Shown: in pieces, positions 564-13,661 of the stretch
Position numbering within the stretch: position 1 is the stretch's first letter
Layout: each line of letters starts with the position of its first letter
Virus record (IMG/VR): IMGVR_UViG_3300032294_002121
Location: 1-22,714 of that record
DNA from: a virus
Strand: one strand, 5' to 3'
DNA: 22,714 nt
Program-made: the position numbers and the translations under genes
The notes under the pieces: model-generated
Told to the model about the DNA's origin: nothing
Seen by the model: the letters and a program-made list of their open reading frames with translations, nothing else
Database searches by the model: none

Positions 564-3326
564 ATGCCAAACGAATTTGTAGCGCGCAATGGTATCATTG
601 CGCTTAATAACTCATCAATAACTGGTTCTTTAGGTGTATCCGGTGGTATCACTGGATCTCTATTTGGTACGGCCTCATGGGCATCAAATGCCGTTACATC
701 ATCTTATATATTAAATGCAGTAAGTGCTTCATTTGCATCAACAGCATCGTTTGTAAATCCACTTAGGCAAAATGTAATAATAACCGGATCAATACAGCTA
801 TCCGGATCTAAAAGTACATTTATTAATACAGCTGCTAATGACACTGTAGCTGAATTTGTTGCTGGTGGTTCTACTAATATAAGATTTAGTAGTGCAACCG
901 TTGGATCTTCTGCTGCTATGTTTATCCGTCCACAAGATGGATTATTACAAGGTCAAAACTACACCTACTTTAATATAGCAGCAGCAAGTGCTAAACTTAA
1001 ATTAAGTACAGATAATGCTGCTAATCCTATAGAAATGCAAGGTGGTAATGTATTAATCAATACATCTACCGACTCTGGGTTTAGGTTTGATGTCAACGGT
1101 ACTTCTCGTTTCACAAATAACATGCTTGTAACAGGTTCTGTTACAGCTACTTCTGCTACAATAAATGGTGCAGTAACATTATACTCAGTTCAGAAAAACA
1201 GTGCTGATCAAACTAATCCTTTACAAATATACAATGCCTTTAATAGTATCAACCCTAGAATTGAATTCTGGGGAGGTTCAGGAGCAAGATTACACTACAA
1301 TACTAGTACTAGAGTATTAAGCCCAGATACCGCTAGTGGTGTTGACTTAGGTACCTCAGCTTTAAATTTTGGTAATGTATTTTCTAATACAATTACAACA
1401 AACACATCATCCTTCTTTGCTACAGTAAGTGGTAGTGTAGGTATTGGTAAGACTACAGCAAACGCTCGCTTAGACGTTAGCGGCTCAGCTATTATAACAG
1501 GTTCTCTCACAGTAACCCAAGGCATTACAGGTTCTCTCCTCGGCACAGCATCCTTAGCAACAACAGCATCAAATGCTTTAACAGCATCATTCGTTCAAAA
1601 TGCTATATCTGCTTCATTTGCATCAACTGCTTCGTTTGTAACAACAGCTCAAACAGCATCATTCGTTCAAAATGCTGTTAGTGCATCGTTTGCAGCTACA
1701 GCATCATCAGCAGATAACTTCTTAGTAAGAGGTACACTTACAGCACAAACAATTGTTGCTCAAACAATTACCTCGTCTACTGATTTTGTAACTGGTTCTA
1801 CACGCTTCGGAAGTTTATCATCAAACACACATCAGTTTACTGGTAGTGTTAGTATAACTGGAAGTTTAACAGCCAATGTTGCTACTTCATCTTTTGTAGG
1901 ATCAATTACAAGTACAGGAAACGGCACTTTTGGTGGTACTATAGTTGGTGATAGAGGGGATGGGTTTCTTTATATGCAAGGATCTAGAGCAGCTGGATTT
2001 TTTATTCAAAACCTATTAGGACCTATAAACTTAAATGCTACCGGATCTTCACTTATTGGTGGATATGTTACTGTACGTAATTCACTTAGAGTATACTCTG
2101 ATAATGATGGAACAGATGGTGTATATATTTTACCTACCACCCTTAATACCAGAAATAGAGCAGGTACAGATTTCTTATTAATAGGAGCAGCTGAAACATC
2201 TTCTATAAAGATATTCAACAATGGAAATGTATTAATCCAAGATGCTGTATCTAGTGGAACATCTGATCCAGGATATAAGTTTAGTGTAAGTGGAAGTGCT
2301 AGATTTAGAAACAATGTAGAAATATCTGGTTCATTCACAGTATTTACAGGCAGCGCGGTTGAATTCCAGGTTACAAACACAGGCGTTAGAATGGGTAATA
2401 TAATTACCGATGCTCACACAGTAACAGGTTCATTCAATGTTAGTGGCAGTGTAACTGCTACTGGTAGTGTTAATATAGCAGGTGGCGTATCAGCATCAGG
2501 AAATATATATCAAGGAGGTACAGGTAATGCTTCTACAGTATTAGCAAGTAATGGAAATACTGCTTTAGTTACTATTTCAAGTACAGGAGCTACTATCAAC
2601 ATGGGTAGATTAGGAGCAGTAAGTTTACTTGCTAACTCTACTGATGGTGGTATTGTAATGAATGATGGAGCATATCTTGGAGTATCATCAGGCACACTTA
2701 GAATTGGTAGTAATCTTGCTGCTAATAATGTTGTCATAGGTAATTTTGCTAATTCAACAGCAACAATAAATGGTAATACTACTATAAGTGGTTCTACTGT
2801 AATAACAGGCTCCTTTACAGTCATCACAGGCAGCGCAGTTGAATTCCAGGTTACAAATACTGGTGTTAGAATAGGTAATGTAACTGCCGATGTTCATACA
2901 GTAACAGGTTCATTCAACATAAGTGGAAGTGGATTTGTACATGGAGGTGGATTTATAGTATCTGGTACATTAGCAACATCAGGTAGTGCCTCTCAAGGTT
3001 TAGTAGCACCACTTAAATTCACTACTGCCACAGCAAACACCAACTATACTTTAGTATACACAGATGAAGGAAAGATGGTTGAAATGAATAATAACGCTGA
3101 TGCTCCTTTAACAGTAACCATCCCATTAAATTCAAGTGTTTCTTTCCCAATAGGAACAGAAATTTCTATTATACAAATAGGAGGAGGAACAACTATAATT
3201 ACAGGAAGTAGTGGAGTAACAGTATATAGTTCTCTTGGAGTAAAAACTCTTCAAAACCCATACGACGTTGCCTCTGTTGTAAAACGCGGCACTGATAGTT
3301 GGTATCTATTTGGTAATTTAAGTTAA
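564..3326 (+). CDS. Long repetitive tail-fibre-like protein, 920 aa
   Basis: Probable receptor-binding or structural fibre, acting at the virion surface. The chain is almost entirely low-charge Ser/Thr/Gly/Ala/Asn-rich repeats. Two regions (about residues 13-70 and 310-390) carry units like TGSLxGTAS and SASFAxTASFV. The rest has beta-prone ITGSxxVSGS units and segments resembling those in other phage fibres (SVGIGKTTANARLDVSGSA, RFDVNGTSRF). A block containing GSAVEFQVTNTGVRxGN occurs twice, 160 residues apart. The last 110 residues form a distinct C-terminal domain (YTLVYTDEGKMVEMNNNAD, then TVTIP, then VVKRGTDSWYLFGNLS) of a type seen at the ends of phage fibre proteins. No S74 intramolecular chaperone is visible. 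The start at 564 follows ACAATATAA; no promoter motif was found in the 45-base gap, so it is probably cotranscribed with the gene before it. Confidence 0.8.
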   Translation: MPNEFVARNGIIALNNSSITGSLGVSGGITGSLFGTASWASNAVTSSYILNAVSASFASTASFVNPLRQNVIITGSIQLSGSKSTFINTAANDTVAEFVAGGSTNIRFSSATVGSSAAMFIRPQDGLLQGQNYTYFNIAAASAKLKLSTDNAANPIEMQGGNVLINTSTDSGFRFDVNGTSRFTNNMLVTGSVTATSATINGAVTLYSVQKNSADQTNPLQIYNAFNSINPRIEFWGGSGARLHYNTSTRVLSPDTASGVDLGTSALNFGNVFSNTITTNTSSFFATVSGSVGIGKTTANARLDVSGSAIITGSLTVTQGITGSLLGTASLATTASNALTASFVQNAISASFASTASFVTTAQTASFVQNAVSASFAATASSADNFLVRGTLTAQTIVAQTITSSTDFVTGSTRFGSLSSNTHQFTGSVSITGSLTANVATSSFVGSITSTGNGTFGGTIVGDRGDGFLYMQGSRAAGFFIQNLLGPINLNATGSSLIGGYVTVRNSLRVYSDNDGTDGVYILPTTLNTRNRAGTDFLLIGAAETSSIKIFNNGNVLIQDAVSSGTSDPGYKFSVSGSARFRNNVEISGSFTVFTGSAVEFQVTNTGVRMGNIITDAHTVTGSFNVSGSVTATGSVNIAGGVSASGNIYQGGTGNASTVLASNGNTALVTISSTGATINMGRLGAVSLLANSTDGGIVMNDGAYLGVSSGTLRIGSNLAANNVVIGNFANSTATINGNTTISGSTVITGSFTVITGSAVEFQVTNTGVRIGNVTADVHTVTGSFNISGSGFVHGGGFIVSGTLATSGSASQGLVAPLKFTTATANTNYTLVYTDEGKMVEMNNNADAPLTVTIPLNSSVSFPIGTEISIIQIGGGTTIITGSSGVTVYSSLGVKTLQNPYDVASVVKRGTDSWYLFGNLS
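1581..1604 (+). repeat. 24-bp direct repeat, copy 1 (in fibre gene)
   Basis: A 24-base segment beginning ACAGCATCATTCG is repeated exactly at 1653-1676, a 72-base (24-codon) offset. Both copies encode TASFVQNA, so the reading frame is kept and the protein repeat is reflected in near-identical DNA. Confidence 0.85.
1653..1676 (+). repeat. 24-bp direct repeat, copy 2 (in fibre gene)
   Basis: Exact second copy of the 24-base segment at 1581-1604. Identity at the third codon positions suggests recent duplication or recombination rather than only protein-level selection. Confidence 0.85.
2346..2437 (+). repeat. 92-bp imperfect direct repeat, copy 1 (in fibre gene)
   Basis: This block runs from ACAGGCAGCG to GTAACAGGTTCATTCAA and is repeated with scattered mismatches at 2826-2917, an offset of 480 bases (160 codons). 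It encodes TGSAVEFQVTNTGVR and the following residues through TVTGSFN. Confidence 0.8.
2826..2917 (+). repeat. 92-bp imperfect direct repeat, copy 2 (in fibre gene)
   Basis: Second copy of the block at 2346-2437. Most differences are third-position changes or conservative replacements (Met to Ile, Ile to Val), consistent with an in-frame duplication that has since diverged. Confidence 0.8.
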
Positions 3327-7360: not shown

Positions 7361-7846
7361 ATGGCAGTATTAAATCCTAATGAAATAATGTTTACAGCGT
7401 TTGAACCTAAAGTTCAAAATCGCTTTATCATGTATATTGATGGTATCCCAGCTTATCTAATCAAAAGTGCTTCAGCACCTGGATTTGAAGCTGGTGAGAT
7501 TATTTTAGATCATATTAACGTTTACCGCAAAGTTAAAGGTAAAGTTCGTTGGAACGACATGACCTTAAGCTTATACGATCCTGTAACTCCATCTGGTGCT
7601 CAATCAGTAATGGAATGGGCTCGTTTGGCTCACGAATCAGTAACTGGCCGCGATGGTTATTCTGACTTCTATAAGAAAGATTTAACCTTAGATATTTTAG
7701 GTCCAGTAGGTGATATCGTAGGTGAGTGGATTGTTAAAGGTGCTTATGTTAAAACAGCAACTTTCGGTGAATACGATTGGGCAAACGATGCAGCAATTAA
7801 CTTGTCTGTAACAATTGCTATGGATTATTGCGTATTAAACTTCTAA
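7361..7846 (+). CDS. gp19: Tail tube protein (T4 gp19-like), 161 aa
   Basis: Forms the inner tail tube, polymerising on the baseplate inside the sheath. It matches the T4 gp19-like family in length (163 aa in T4) and in sequence pattern: NRFIMYIDGIPAYLIKSASAPG near the N-terminus, the acidic-to-basic loop GEIILDHINVYRKVKGKVRW, the strand TLSLYDPVTPSGAQSVMEW, and the closing strands KGAYVKTATFGEYDW and INLSVTIAMDYCVL. It follows the sheath by 50 bases and is followed by a strong intrinsic terminator, so it can be made as a short separate transcript. The start follows an A-rich leader (CAACAATAGAAA). Confidence 0.97.
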   Translation: MAVLNPNEIMFTAFEPKVQNRFIMYIDGIPAYLIKSASAPGFEAGEIILDHINVYRKVKGKVRWNDMTLSLYDPVTPSGAQSVMEWARLAHESVTGRDGYSDFYKKDLTLDILGPVGDIVGEWIVKGAYVKTATFGEYDWANDAAINLSVTIAMDYCVLNF

Positions 7847-7937: not shown

Positions 7938-8690
7938 ATGGCTGAATTAAAGTTACCGACCGAAATGGTTTCATTGCCTTCAAAAGGCTTATTGTATCCT
8001 AAAGAATCACCACTCTCAAGTGGTGAAGTTGAAATGAAGTATATGACAGCTAAGGAAGAAGATATCCTTACCAACAGTAACTTCATTAAAAATGGTACTG
8101 TAGTTGATAAACTATTACAATCATTGATTGTAACACCAATCAACTATGATGATTTGTTAATCGGAGATAAAAATGCAATTTTGATTGCTGCTCGTATCTT
8201 AGGATACGGTGCTGAATATCCTTTTAAGTATACAAATGAGCGAGGACAAGAAATAGAAGCAACAGTTGATTTATCTAAATTAAATGAAAAAGAATTAGAT
8301 GAATCTTTAATTAACAATGGTGTTAATGAGTTTATGTTTACTACTCCTAAAACAGGTACAGTATTAACATTTAAATTATTGACACACGGTGATGAGAAAA
8401 AGATTGAAGCTGAGATTAAAGGATTGAAAAAAGTAAATCCTAATGGCTCATTCGATGTTACTACTCGTTTAAAATATATGGTTACGTCTGTTAATGGAGA
8501 CCGTGATCAAAAAACAATCCGTGATTTTATTGACAATTACCTATTAGCTCCAGATGCTAGAGCATTGCGTGATTATTATTCTAAAATACAACCGGATATC
8601 AAGTTGAAATACACTCCAGAAGATGAAAACTATACAGGGGAGGGTATAGATGTTCCTATTTCTATTAACTTTTTTTGGCCTGACGCCTGA
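7938..8690 (+). CDS. gp26: Baseplate hub assembly protein (T4 gp26-like), 250 aa
   Basis: Belongs to the T4 gp26-like base plate protein family. Landmarks are MVSLPSKGLLYPKESPLSSG near the N-terminus, the core VEMKYMTAKEEDILTN, then DKLLQSLIV, then the strongly conserved DDLLIGDKNAILIAARILGYG, and the terminal FFWPDA. In many relatives a CPxCG zinc knuckle follows; here that loop reads YTNERGQE with no cysteines, so metal binding appears lost. It acts in tail or baseplate assembly rather than, as far as is known, as a major virion component. It overlaps the next frame by 41 bases, ending over a run of seven T at 8670-8676, and lies in the slot just upstream of the tape measure where tail assembly chaperones are usual. 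Confidence 0.88.
   Translation: MAELKLPTEMVSLPSKGLLYPKESPLSSGEVEMKYMTAKEEDILTNSNFIKNGTVVDKLLQSLIVTPINYDDLLIGDKNAILIAARILGYGAEYPFKYTNERGQEIEATVDLSKLNEKELDESLINNGVNEFMFTTPKTGTVLTFKLLTHGDEKKIEAEIKGLKKVNPNGSFDVTTRLKYMVTSVNGDRDQKTIRDFIDNYLLAPDARALRDYYSKIQPDIKLKYTPEDENYTGEGIDVPISINFFWPDA
8636..8644 (+). promoter_or_regulatory. Rare Shine-Dalgarno-like sequence before the overlapping frame
   Basis: AGGGGAGGG ends 5 bases before the ATG at 8650, an ideal Shine-Dalgarno spacing, although it lies inside the gp26-like gene. Other starts in the window lack such a sequence. It may allow internal initiation of the overlapping frame. Confidence 0.4.
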
Positions 8691-8940
8691 ACATAGACCC
8701 ATTATCTTTAAACAAATTCATGAAATAGTATTTCATGGAAATGGTGGATACGATTGGAATACTGTTTATAATATGCCTCTGTGGTTACGTCGAACTACGT
8801 TTAATTTAATTAAAGAGTATTATGATGAGCAGAGAGAAGCTGATGAAAAGCAGCGAAATATGCTAAAAAACAAGGACAAGAAAGATATAGCACGACCAAA
8901 CATAACGCCAAATTATACAGCGAAGGTGCCCAAAAAATAG
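8650..8940 (+). CDS. Small tail-assembly protein overlapping gp26, possible frameshift extension, 96 aa
   Basis: The recognisable part begins at FFGLTPEHRPIIFKQIHEIV and continues HGNGGYDWNTVYNMPLWLRR, followed by a charged helical tail (IKEYYDEQREADEKQRNMLK) and a basic end. Similar short frames follow gp26-like genes in other T4-like phages and take the place of the gp51 hub catalyst or a tail assembly chaperone; the exact equivalence is not certain. The first seven residues (MFLFLLT) are only the shifted reading of gp26 codons and look non-native. The conserved part starts right after the run of T at 8670-8676, where a +1 shift would give a 333-residue gp26 fusion. Internal initiation at 8650 is the alternative, supported by AGGGGAGGG upstream. 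The stop lies in a hairpin. Confidence 0.75.
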   Translation: MFLFLLTFFGLTPEHRPIIFKQIHEIVFHGNGGYDWNTVYNMPLWLRRTTFNLIKEYYDEQREADEKQRNMLKNKDKKDIARPNITPNYTAKVPKK

Positions 8941-8975: not shown

Positions 8976-10910
8976 ATGGCTGTAGATCCACAAATAATTA
9001 GAAAACTTACAGAAGATTTAGATAATCTGAATGATGTTATAGATGATGTATCTAAACAAATTCAGAATAATTTAAATAAACAGCTTGCTGTAACTAGTGA
9101 ATCTATCAATGATATGGTAGAGGGTCTGGAAAAGGGTGAAGATGTTACCAAAAAAGCAGCATCTGCCCTAAAGAAAGCCCAAATAGAAAATAGAAAATTA
9201 GGCCTTGACCAAAATAGAATACAATCTCAATTGCTAGAGATTGAAAAAAAACTTGCTAAAGGATACAGTGCTAAACTAAAAGCCCAAAAAGATTCTCTTG
9301 AAGCCCAAATGCAAGATAATCTACTACAACAACAACTAAATGATTCTTTATCTGATTATTTAAGAAAACTTAATGAAGCTGCAGAAACTGAAAGCAAAAT
9401 ATCTAAACAAAAAGGGACACAAGGTATTCTAGATGATATAAAGAAAAGACTTAGACTAGAGGAAATAAAAGATATGTTTACCTTAGCAAGTATTTTTAAA
9501 ATTATATTAGACTCTGCTTTAGGTTTTAATAAAGCTTCTGTAGAAATAGGTAAAAATTTAGGTTATGGTGCCGATCAAGCAGATAGAGTAACTAATAACA
9601 TAGTTAATGCTGCTAGAGGTTCTGAAAATCTTAATTTTACTTTAGCTAATGCAGCAGCGGCAATGAGTGAACTAAATGCCTCTATTGGATTAGTAGCTGA
9701 GTATTCTGCTGATACTCTTGAAACCCAGATAATGTTAACTAAACAGTTTGGGTTACAAGCAGATGAAGCAGCCGGTATTTATAAGTTTTCAGTTTTAACA
9801 GGTAAGTCTGCTTCTGAAACTAACAAAGCAATGGTTAGTGCCTTTGTTGCTGCTAGAAACCAGTTTAAAGTAGGAGCTAATTTTAAACAGGTAATGGCCG
9901 AGGCTGCTAAAGTATCAGGCCAATTAGCAGCTAATCTAGGATACAACCCAGATCGTATTACTAAAGCAGTAGTAGCAATGAAAGCATTTGGTACTACGCT
10001 TGAACAAACAAAAGCCCAGGGTGAAGCTTTATTAAATTTTGAATCATCACTTGAAGCAGAATTAAAAGCAGAATTATTAACTGGTCAAGCTATAAATTTA
10101 GAAAGAGCTAGAGCAGCTGCTTTAGCTGGTGATCAAGTTAAATTAGCAGAAGAACTTGCTAATCAAGGAATGACGCTTGAGAAGTTTCAAAAGATGAATG
10201 TACTTGCTCAAAAGTCATACTCTGAAGCATTAGGATTAAGTGCAGATCAATTATCCGAACAATTACAAAAGCAAAAATTAGCTGTTGAAAGCGGAAAATC
10301 ATTAGCTCAGTTAACTGAAGAAGAAGCATTAGAAGCTCAAAAAAGACAAAACATACAAGACCAATTTAATGCTGCTATGTTAAAACTTCAAGATATAATT
10401 GGAGGATTAGTAGCAGGACCTTTAGGAATGATGTTATCTGTACTTTCAGATGCATTGTCATTAATAGGAAAAATAGTAGCAGGCATACAATCCGTATTAG
10501 GATCAGGATTAACCAAAGTATTACTAGGTACTATAACTGGTTTAGCTGTTGGAGGACCTGTAGGTGCTTTAGTAGGAGGTATTGCTGGTATAGCTTCAGC
10601 AGCAATAGCAGATGATATGGTAGGATATGGTGCTCGCACATTAGTGACTCCTGATGGTCCTATAGCTTTGAATAATAACGATACTGTAATCGCAGGTACT
10701 AATTTATTTAAAGGAGATGACGTTATGTCTTTTGGAAAAGGAGCATTACGATTAGGAGGAGGCAATGATGAACTTATAGCAAAATTAGACCAAATAGCAT
10801 CCCGACCAGCAGTAGCCTATATACAAGGTGAACGTCCGTTTGCTGATACTTTAGGAAGACAATCACAGTTATTCACATCAGGTATGCAAAACCAATCCAA
10901 ACTAGCATAA
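8976..10910 (+). CDS. Tail tape measure protein (T4 gp29 equivalent), 644 aa
   Basis: Sets tail length and is ejected ahead of the DNA. Residues 1-165 are charged, heptad-rich coiled coil (EDLDNLNDVIDDVSKQIQNN, then ALKKAQIENRKL). Residues 170-470 are Ala/Gln-rich helix. Residues 473-547 are a hydrophobic Gly/Ala-rich segment (GGLVAGPLGMMLSVLSDALS to VGGPVGALVGGIAGIASAAI) able to insert into a membrane. A C-terminal domain follows with MVGYGARTLVTPDGPIALNN and DTVIAGTNLFKGDDVMS, a module common at the ends of phage tape measures. Its place after sheath, tube and the assembly chaperone confirms the call. Length is near T4 gp29 (590 aa). By the usual 1.5 Angstrom per residue rule the tail would be roughly 95-100 nm. 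Confidence 0.93.
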   Translation: MAVDPQIIRKLTEDLDNLNDVIDDVSKQIQNNLNKQLAVTSESINDMVEGLEKGEDVTKKAASALKKAQIENRKLGLDQNRIQSQLLEIEKKLAKGYSAKLKAQKDSLEAQMQDNLLQQQLNDSLSDYLRKLNEAAETESKISKQKGTQGILDDIKKRLRLEEIKDMFTLASIFKIILDSALGFNKASVEIGKNLGYGADQADRVTNNIVNAARGSENLNFTLANAAAAMSELNASIGLVAEYSADTLETQIMLTKQFGLQADEAAGIYKFSVLTGKSASETNKAMVSAFVAARNQFKVGANFKQVMAEAAKVSGQLAANLGYNPDRITKAVVAMKAFGTTLEQTKAQGEALLNFESSLEAELKAELLTGQAINLERARAAALAGDQVKLAEELANQGMTLEKFQKMNVLAQKSYSEALGLSADQLSEQLQKQKLAVESGKSLAQLTEEEALEAQKRQNIQDQFNAAMLKLQDIIGGLVAGPLGMMLSVLSDALSLIGKIVAGIQSVLGSGLTKVLLGTITGLAVGGPVGALVGGIAGIASAAIADDMVGYGARTLVTPDGPIALNNNDTVIAGTNLFKGDDVMSFGKGALRLGGGNDELIAKLDQIASRPAVAYIQGERPFADTLGRQSQLFTSGMQNQSKLA

Positions 10911-13352: not shown

Positions 13353-13661
13353 ATGGCAACAAGATACAATAATAAAACAATTTTATATACCTCTCAAGGT
13401 AAACCTTATTATAAAAGTAAGCAATACCCAAATATACCTTTATCTGAAACAGATGTATATGTTATCACAACAATTGGAGATAGACTTGATTCCCTAGCCT
13501 ATTCTTATTATCGTGATACCGATCTATGGTGGGTAATATCAGCAGCAAACAATAATATAACTAAAGGTTCATTGTTTCCTGTACCTGGTACTCAATTAAG
13601 AATACCAACCGATATAAATAATGTTTTACAATTATTTAATAGATTCAATCAAGCTAGATAA
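13353..13661 (+). CDS. gp53: Baseplate wedge protein with LysM-like fold (T4 gp53-like), 102 aa
   Basis: The single domain resembles the LysM-like core of T4 gp53: ETDVYVITTIGDRLDSLAYS, YYRDTDLWWVISAANN, then FPVPGTQLRIP. In LysM-type modules the tyrosine/tryptophan helix after the first strand and the final PGxxLxIP strand are characteristic. T4 gp53 is longer (196 aa), so this is a minimal form. It closes the baseplate wedge around the hub. It sits between the gp48/gp54-like gene (2-base gap) and the hub gene (5-base gap). A generic LysM peptidoglycan-binding protein is the alternative, but its place inside the baseplate operon favours gp53. Confidence 0.82.
   Translation: MATRYNNKTILYTSQGKPYYKSKQYPNIPLSETDVYVITTIGDRLDSLAYSYYRDTDLWWVISAANNNITKGSLFPVPGTQLRIPTDINNVLQLFNRFNQAR

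Follow-up and report, generated by a model that had tools for sequence, protein, structure and literature searches.

The window analyzed here, meaning the whole stretch of DNA, is a virus record of 22,714 bases. Among its tail genes, the sheath gene (5277) is followed by those for the tube (7361) and a gp26-like protein (7938–8690), then by an open reading frame (ORF) that is in the +1 frame relative to gp26 and ends at 8940, and then by a putative tape measure gene (8976); the features from the tube to the tape measure all lie on the plus strand. The tube gene (7361–7846) was recognized by its match to PHROG 4542 (E = 1.4e-20). The gene that follows the +1 frame (8976–10910) was designated a putative tape measure by its position and length; family searches (Pfam-type and PHROG) gave no match for it, and the gene occupying this position in immuto is annotated as a tail tape measure protein. 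Two overlapping frames directly precede the tape measure gene, a layout that immuto shares. Farther downstream, a small ORF at 13353–13661 matched the baseplate wedge family PHROG 7145 (E = 7e-13) and other tail families.

The gp26-like gene (7938–8690) encodes 250 residues and terminates at the TGA at 8688–8690. Sequence comparison assigns its product to the T4 gp26 family, as the match to PF12322 (T4_baseplate; E = 9e-7, 29.2 bits) exceeded the curated cut-off of 24.5, and a further match was obtained to the baseplate hub family PHROG 150 (E = 1.4e-12). Direct comparisons of 17-row profiles with T4 gp26, gp51, and gp28 were negative, and a PDB sequence search with both the gp26 and the +1 domain profiles returned nothing. 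AlphaFold2 (AF2) models were made for gp26 and the +1 domain separately. In BFVD, the matches to the gp26 model (pLDDT 90.4) were T4-like hub proteins, the SP-15 protein among them (E = 1.6e-16). When residues 1–94 of this model were compared with 998 PDB chains, the leading matches were YqbN (Z = 6.3), which we take to be a tail-chaperone relative, and the HK97 tail assembly chaperone (Z = 5.2), followed by the next chain at Z = 2.2; Z-scores of 5–6 are moderate, and the Foldseek E-values were not significant. The modeled comparison supports a tail-assembly-chaperone-like fold for the N-terminal part of gp26.

At its 3′ end, the gp26 frame reads ATT AAC TTT TTT TGG CCT GAC GCC TGA, so that the codons TTT TTT T(GG) span a run of seven T at 8670–8676. 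Read one base on, the letters become TTT TTT GGC CTG ACG CCT GAA, encoding FFGLTPE. The +1 frame is open from its first Phe at 8671, and the extension (8677–8940) comprises 87 codons, from GGC at 8677, plus the stop codon at 8938–8940. The initial annotation had described a gp26-like frame ending in INFFWPDA over the seven T, a +1 frame reading FFGLTPEHRP for 87 codons, and a 333-residue fusion of the two. The letters bear out both frames, and reading TTTT as a single Phe step yields one product of 333 residues (7938–8940) with no internal stop. Hereafter, the 250-residue protein is termed the short form (TAC-N) and the predicted frameshift product the long form (TAC-NC). Across all 22,714 bases of the window there is a single TTTTTTT, compared with 12 positions for AAAAAAA.

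Relatives of the junction were collected with the +1 ORF as query (80 viral contigs), with its alignment as query (the best 80 of 595 confirmed relatives, 79 of them new), from bacterial MAG contigs (6 added), and with the domain of the divergent Microcystis phage Mel-JY01 (another 70 loci); the LR756508 domain used as a query found no relatives. Among the matches listed, the second frame stood at +1 in 169 of the first 170 loci having both parts and in all 70 loci of the divergent Mel-JY01 set, that is, in 239/240 loci found via the second frame. The single exception (L007) is accounted for by an indel upstream, near 2990–3022 of that locus, which breaks gp26 and leaves the slip site, identical to the others, and the +1 domain intact. 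Since these queries included the FFG peptide, relatives were resampled with gp26 alone, using three patterns, one of which covered FFWP. All 79 loci with both parts again had the +1 relation, and the eightieth stops just past the site; the locus counts (170, 70, and 79) do not represent independent lineages. No in-frame fusion of gp26 and the second domain was found among the sampled loci. The same +1 layout is present in immuto, Mel-JY01, SP-15, LIS04, GXN1, and RM378, and the complete immuto and Mel-JY01 records each hold a single place for gp26 and a single place for the +1 domain. Differences in the +1 frame were distributed over codon positions 1, 2, and 3 as 757/336/1242, a pattern indicating that this frame is coding and under protein selection.

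The letters at the junction are strongly constrained. Among 124 non-redundant loci, the site codons were TTT TTT TGG (118), TTT CTT TGG (4), TTT TTT TTC (1), and TTT CTA TTC (1), while the gp26-based sample (n = 79) gave TTT TTT TGG in 65, CTT TGG in 5, CTT TAC in 4, TTT TTC in 3, and TTT TAC in 2. The constant part is TTT YTT T, found in 122/124 non-redundant loci and in 79/79 loci sampled through gp26, the exceptions being the TTT CTA TTC locus (L083) and more distant phages. The run of seven T occupies the slip site in 119/124 non-redundant relatives, compared with 117 other such runs in the 623 kb of the same loci, and other Phe-Phe pairs in gp26 are written TTTTTT in just 3 of 13 cases. 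By these counts, the seven-T run at the junction is more than a chance occurrence. The codon after TTT YTT T varies (TGG, TAC, or TTC), so a slow Trp codon would not be essential. The idea that the base preceding the run is never T was also considered and ruled out, as T stands there in 3/79 loci. Downstream of the site, nothing consistent stood out in RNA structure predictions of the relatives' loci (mean z of −0.5 to −0.95).

Within the run, the initial annotation had placed the slip at TTT 8673–8675. In the window alone this codon cannot be separated from the preceding TTT (8670–8672), as both give the same peptide; the YTT T variation among relatives favors the second codon. The probable P-site codon is therefore TTT 8673–8675, re-pairing with TTT 8674–8676. 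A seven-T run is also a possible place for a −2 ribosomal shift, which Mu uses according to the initial annotation, or for RNA polymerase slippage, and either event could in principle join the two frames. Several relatives speak against both, as the layout is unchanged where the run is interrupted by TTT CTT T (4/124 and 9/79 loci), and GXN1 (TTC TTT CGT) and L083 (TTT CTA TTC) likewise break it; moreover, CTT re-pairs with TTT at +1 and poorly at −2. We consider joining by a −2 shift or polymerase slippage highly improbable.

A different alternative is that the +1 frame is expressed as a gene of its own, with initiation inside gp26 at the ATG at 8650–8652, aided by AGGGGAGGG. Both elements, put forward in the initial annotation as the rival to frameshifting, are present: AGGGGAGGG occupies 8636–8644, and the ATG lies 5 nt past the Shine–Dalgarno (SD)-like element GGGGAGGG (8637–8644), which contains GGAGG at 8639–8643. 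Internal initiation would also fit with the conservation of GGAGG upstream across relatives, with the annotation of the second gene of Mel-JY01 from an in-frame TTG, and with the related −1-frame domain of T4-like phages, for which an ATG frequently overlaps the stop of gp26. The relatives nevertheless offer little from which such a gene could start. In 77/123 scored non-redundant loci, the stretch from the last stop to the conserved part contains no ATG, GTG, or TTG; 100/123 lack an ATG in the +1 frame ahead of the conserved part; and in 10 loci the +1 frame opens just 3 nt ahead of the first Phe. Some relatives carry a stop immediately ahead of the conserved part, and in many a stop separates GGAGG from the site. 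Only four loci, including the window with its ATG at 8650, have an ATG preceded by an SD-like motif. Furthermore, an SD was absent from all inspected upstream sequences of window genes (0/22) and from all gp26 starts (0/79). The main gene starts of the window are all without an SD, in which they resemble those of Bacteroidota-type phages.

Given the missing start codons in 77/123 loci, the directly preceding stops, and the absence of SD use in the phage, the proposed initiation at 8650 is very hard to sustain, and we judge this ATG, which is unconserved, a non-start. Aligning the junction across relatives, the check suggested at the outset, showed a conserved T-run with FFW/FFG kept and no conserved start codon. 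In many relatives, stops break up the residues preceding the conserved part, in agreement with the earlier reading of these residues as shadow coding. Among the more distant phages, RM378 has no start ahead of its +1 continuation, and SP-15, LIS04, and GXN1 retain possible start codons. Across relatives, then, the second domain appears to lack a start of its own and to follow a conserved slippery site, as a G/GT-type pair requires. We conclude from these comparisons that +1 frameshifting at the junction is very probable.

Deposited annotations treat the second frame unevenly. The deposited second gene of immuto and of SP-15 begins at a late ATG, and that of LIS04 is unannotated; in all three (L081, 4124–4234; L241, 3255–3374; L243, 3209–3438) the conserved +1 part is lost.

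The GGAGG motif occurs within 45 nt upstream of the site in 111/124 loci, against an expectation of 0.011 per locus. The distance from the start of GGAGG to the T-run is 31 nt in 81 loci, including the window, 22 nt in 18, and 28 nt in 10, and the gap between GGAGG and the T-run spans 17–26 nt. The residues encoded there vary (GEG, EEG, QEG, REA, and GGV) while GGAGG itself is kept, and in a 35-locus set, Glu at GGAGG is encoded by GAG in 32/32 cases, although GAG makes up 13% of Glu codons. The motif is missing in some groups (Mel-JY01 and L171). Bacteroidia retain the prfB frameshift together with its SD-like element even though their ribosomes hardly initiate via SD (PMC8710568), which makes a role for GGAGG as a stimulator of the +1 shift plausible. 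Its spacing is unlike that of prfB, and at 17–26 nt it is too far upstream for the prfB mechanism. The comparison with prfB (release factor 2) extends to the YTT T slip, of which both CTT and TTT variants exist (PMC8710568, PMC12421855), prfB genes with a poly-T slip having been reported by a 2025 survey (PMC12421855), and to the presence of an SD-like element upstream. At our junction, however, the resemblance is confined to the YTT T part, with YTT and then T in the P site: the A site would hold a sense codon (TGG, TAC, or TTC) rather than a stop, GGAGG lies at 17–26 nt rather than about 3, and there is no autoregulation.

The +1 domain forms a conserved family (42-row alignment). Its AF2 model (pLDDT 79.8) contains helices at residues 9–22, 29–33, and 37–68, and fold searches with it gave only weak matches (best E = 0.0096, best Z = 2.6), so its fold was not identified by structure. 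In profile comparisons, hhalign, whose E-values apply to single comparisons, aligned the +1 domain with the short gp51 of cyanophage-type relatives at a probability of 93.5 and with the SP-15 group at 91.6, and short gp51 in turn aligned with residues 200–244 of T4 gp51 at 89.6. A direct comparison of the narrow +1 domain profile with T4 gp51 was negative, the link being seen only with a wider alignment via short gp51. By profile evidence, the +1 domain is homologous to short gp51 and, through it, to the C-terminus of T4 gp51, the baseplate hub assembly catalyst. Pfam DUF6760 was considered for the domain and set aside: the hints were far under the cut-off, and a three-genome search gave no matches, with the controls silent too.

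Farther relatives place the junction in a wider context. In SP-15 (TTT TTT CAC), LIS04 (TTT TTT AGT), GXN1 (TTC TTT CGT), and RM378 (TTT TTT TGG), gp26 ends in Phe-Phe and is followed by the +1 continuation. In eleven T4-like phages (Sf-FS3, P-HM1, HTVC008M, Cr30, Moby, K393, PX29, D483, KWBSE43-6, LIMEstone1, and RAS14), a similar, gp51-like domain follows the Phe-Phe end of gp26 in the −1 frame, the junction usually being T TTT TTC or a run much like it; in this group, which may either shift or restart, an ATG often overlaps the stop of gp26, and the LR756511 domain likewise lies in the −1 frame. The gp26 and short gp51 systems of cyanophages, HTVC008M, Cr30, PX29, and Ackermannviridae share with the window the gene order, the Phe-Phe end of gp26, and a related second domain, but differ in that this domain is in the −1 frame and often comes with a separate ATG where gp26 stops. 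With the domain following at the same Phe-Phe place in the −1 or the +1 frame, the direction differs between groups. It is conceivable, though we would not call it probable, that the chaperone site switched frameshift direction in evolution, from the same Phe-Phe codons, being −1 in the cyanophage type and +1 here, with the +1 form stimulated by GGAGG from 17–26 nt. To our knowledge, GGAGG at this spacing is not known to promote +1 shifts.

Taken together, we propose, with a probability of roughly 0.87, that the locus makes two proteins, gp26 and a frameshifted 333-residue long form, as a tail chaperone pair. Most ribosomes would read gp26 to the stop at 8688 and release the 250-residue short form, while a fraction would slip by +1 at TTT YTT T (8670–8676), where the peptidyl-tRNA on TTT would re-pair with the overlapping TTT. 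The +1 frame would then be read to 8937, which would append the helical, gp51-like domain at the C-terminus. If the two forms act as lambda gpG and gpGT do, the tape measure would be coated by the short form and tail tube subunits would be brought in by the long form, with the product of the upstream tube gene as a possible partner; both forms would then leave the finished tail.

The likeness to lambda gpG/gpGT consists of a pair directly before the tape measure, a short and a frameshift-extended long form, and a helical extension (PMC5009743). In lambda, however, the shift is −1, and the likeness seen between gp26 and the HK97 and YqbN chaperones is a moderate one of fold rather than of sequence. 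With T4, the locus shares the gp26 family, a gp26 that also ends in Phe-Phe (LKEFFELL), and the link of the +1 domain to the gp51 C-terminus; T4 differs in having gp26 and gp51 as two separate genes on opposite strands, for which no frameshift was proposed (PMC10885494). The earlier suggestion that gp26 plus this frame is the T4-type equivalent of a frameshifted chaperone pair is supported by the chaperone matches of the gp26 model and by the gp51 link, with the refinement that T4-like cyanophages and others carry the domain in the −1 frame, so that the equivalent exists in a different direction.

That the two forms act as a tail assembly chaperone pair is itself probable. The frameshift could be real and both products could instead be structural hub proteins, as annotations make gp26 a part of the baseplate hub, a T4 review notes genetic evidence for its presence in the hub (PMC3004832), and LIMEstone1 gp26 has been noted as a confirmed structural protein. 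In a table of the same review, though, both gp26 and gp51 appear among the hub assembly chaperones (PMC3004832), the matches of the gp26 model are to known tail assembly chaperones, and the gene stands directly before the tape measure. The tail assembly chaperone (TAC) assignment in T4-like phages by Vladimirov et al. 2022, as described in papers citing it, points the same way, and we regard the structural reading as unlikely.

A 2016 review described lambda-type frameshifting as widely conserved in long-tailed phages, with T4 excepted (PMC5009743), and the archaeal myovirus HSTV-2 offers a very likely +1 shift at the tail chaperone position, in an archaeal virus (PMC5009743). According to papers citing it, Vladimirov et al. 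2022 proposed a mechanism other than frameshifting for the T4-like TAC, and one of these papers describes poly-T −1 signals as known in T4-like TAC genes; both limit the novelty that can be claimed here. The literature searched contained no description of a +1 shift for the gp26/gp51-type family.

These findings suggest a widespread T4-type group in which frameshifting seems to be the sole route to the second domain, in the unusual +1 direction, and would correct the deposited genome annotations of immuto, SP-15, and LIS04. They further provide a set of natural variants for a type of +1 site whose A-site codon is a sense codon, as well as a case of a conserved SD-like element in phages whose genes start without SD.
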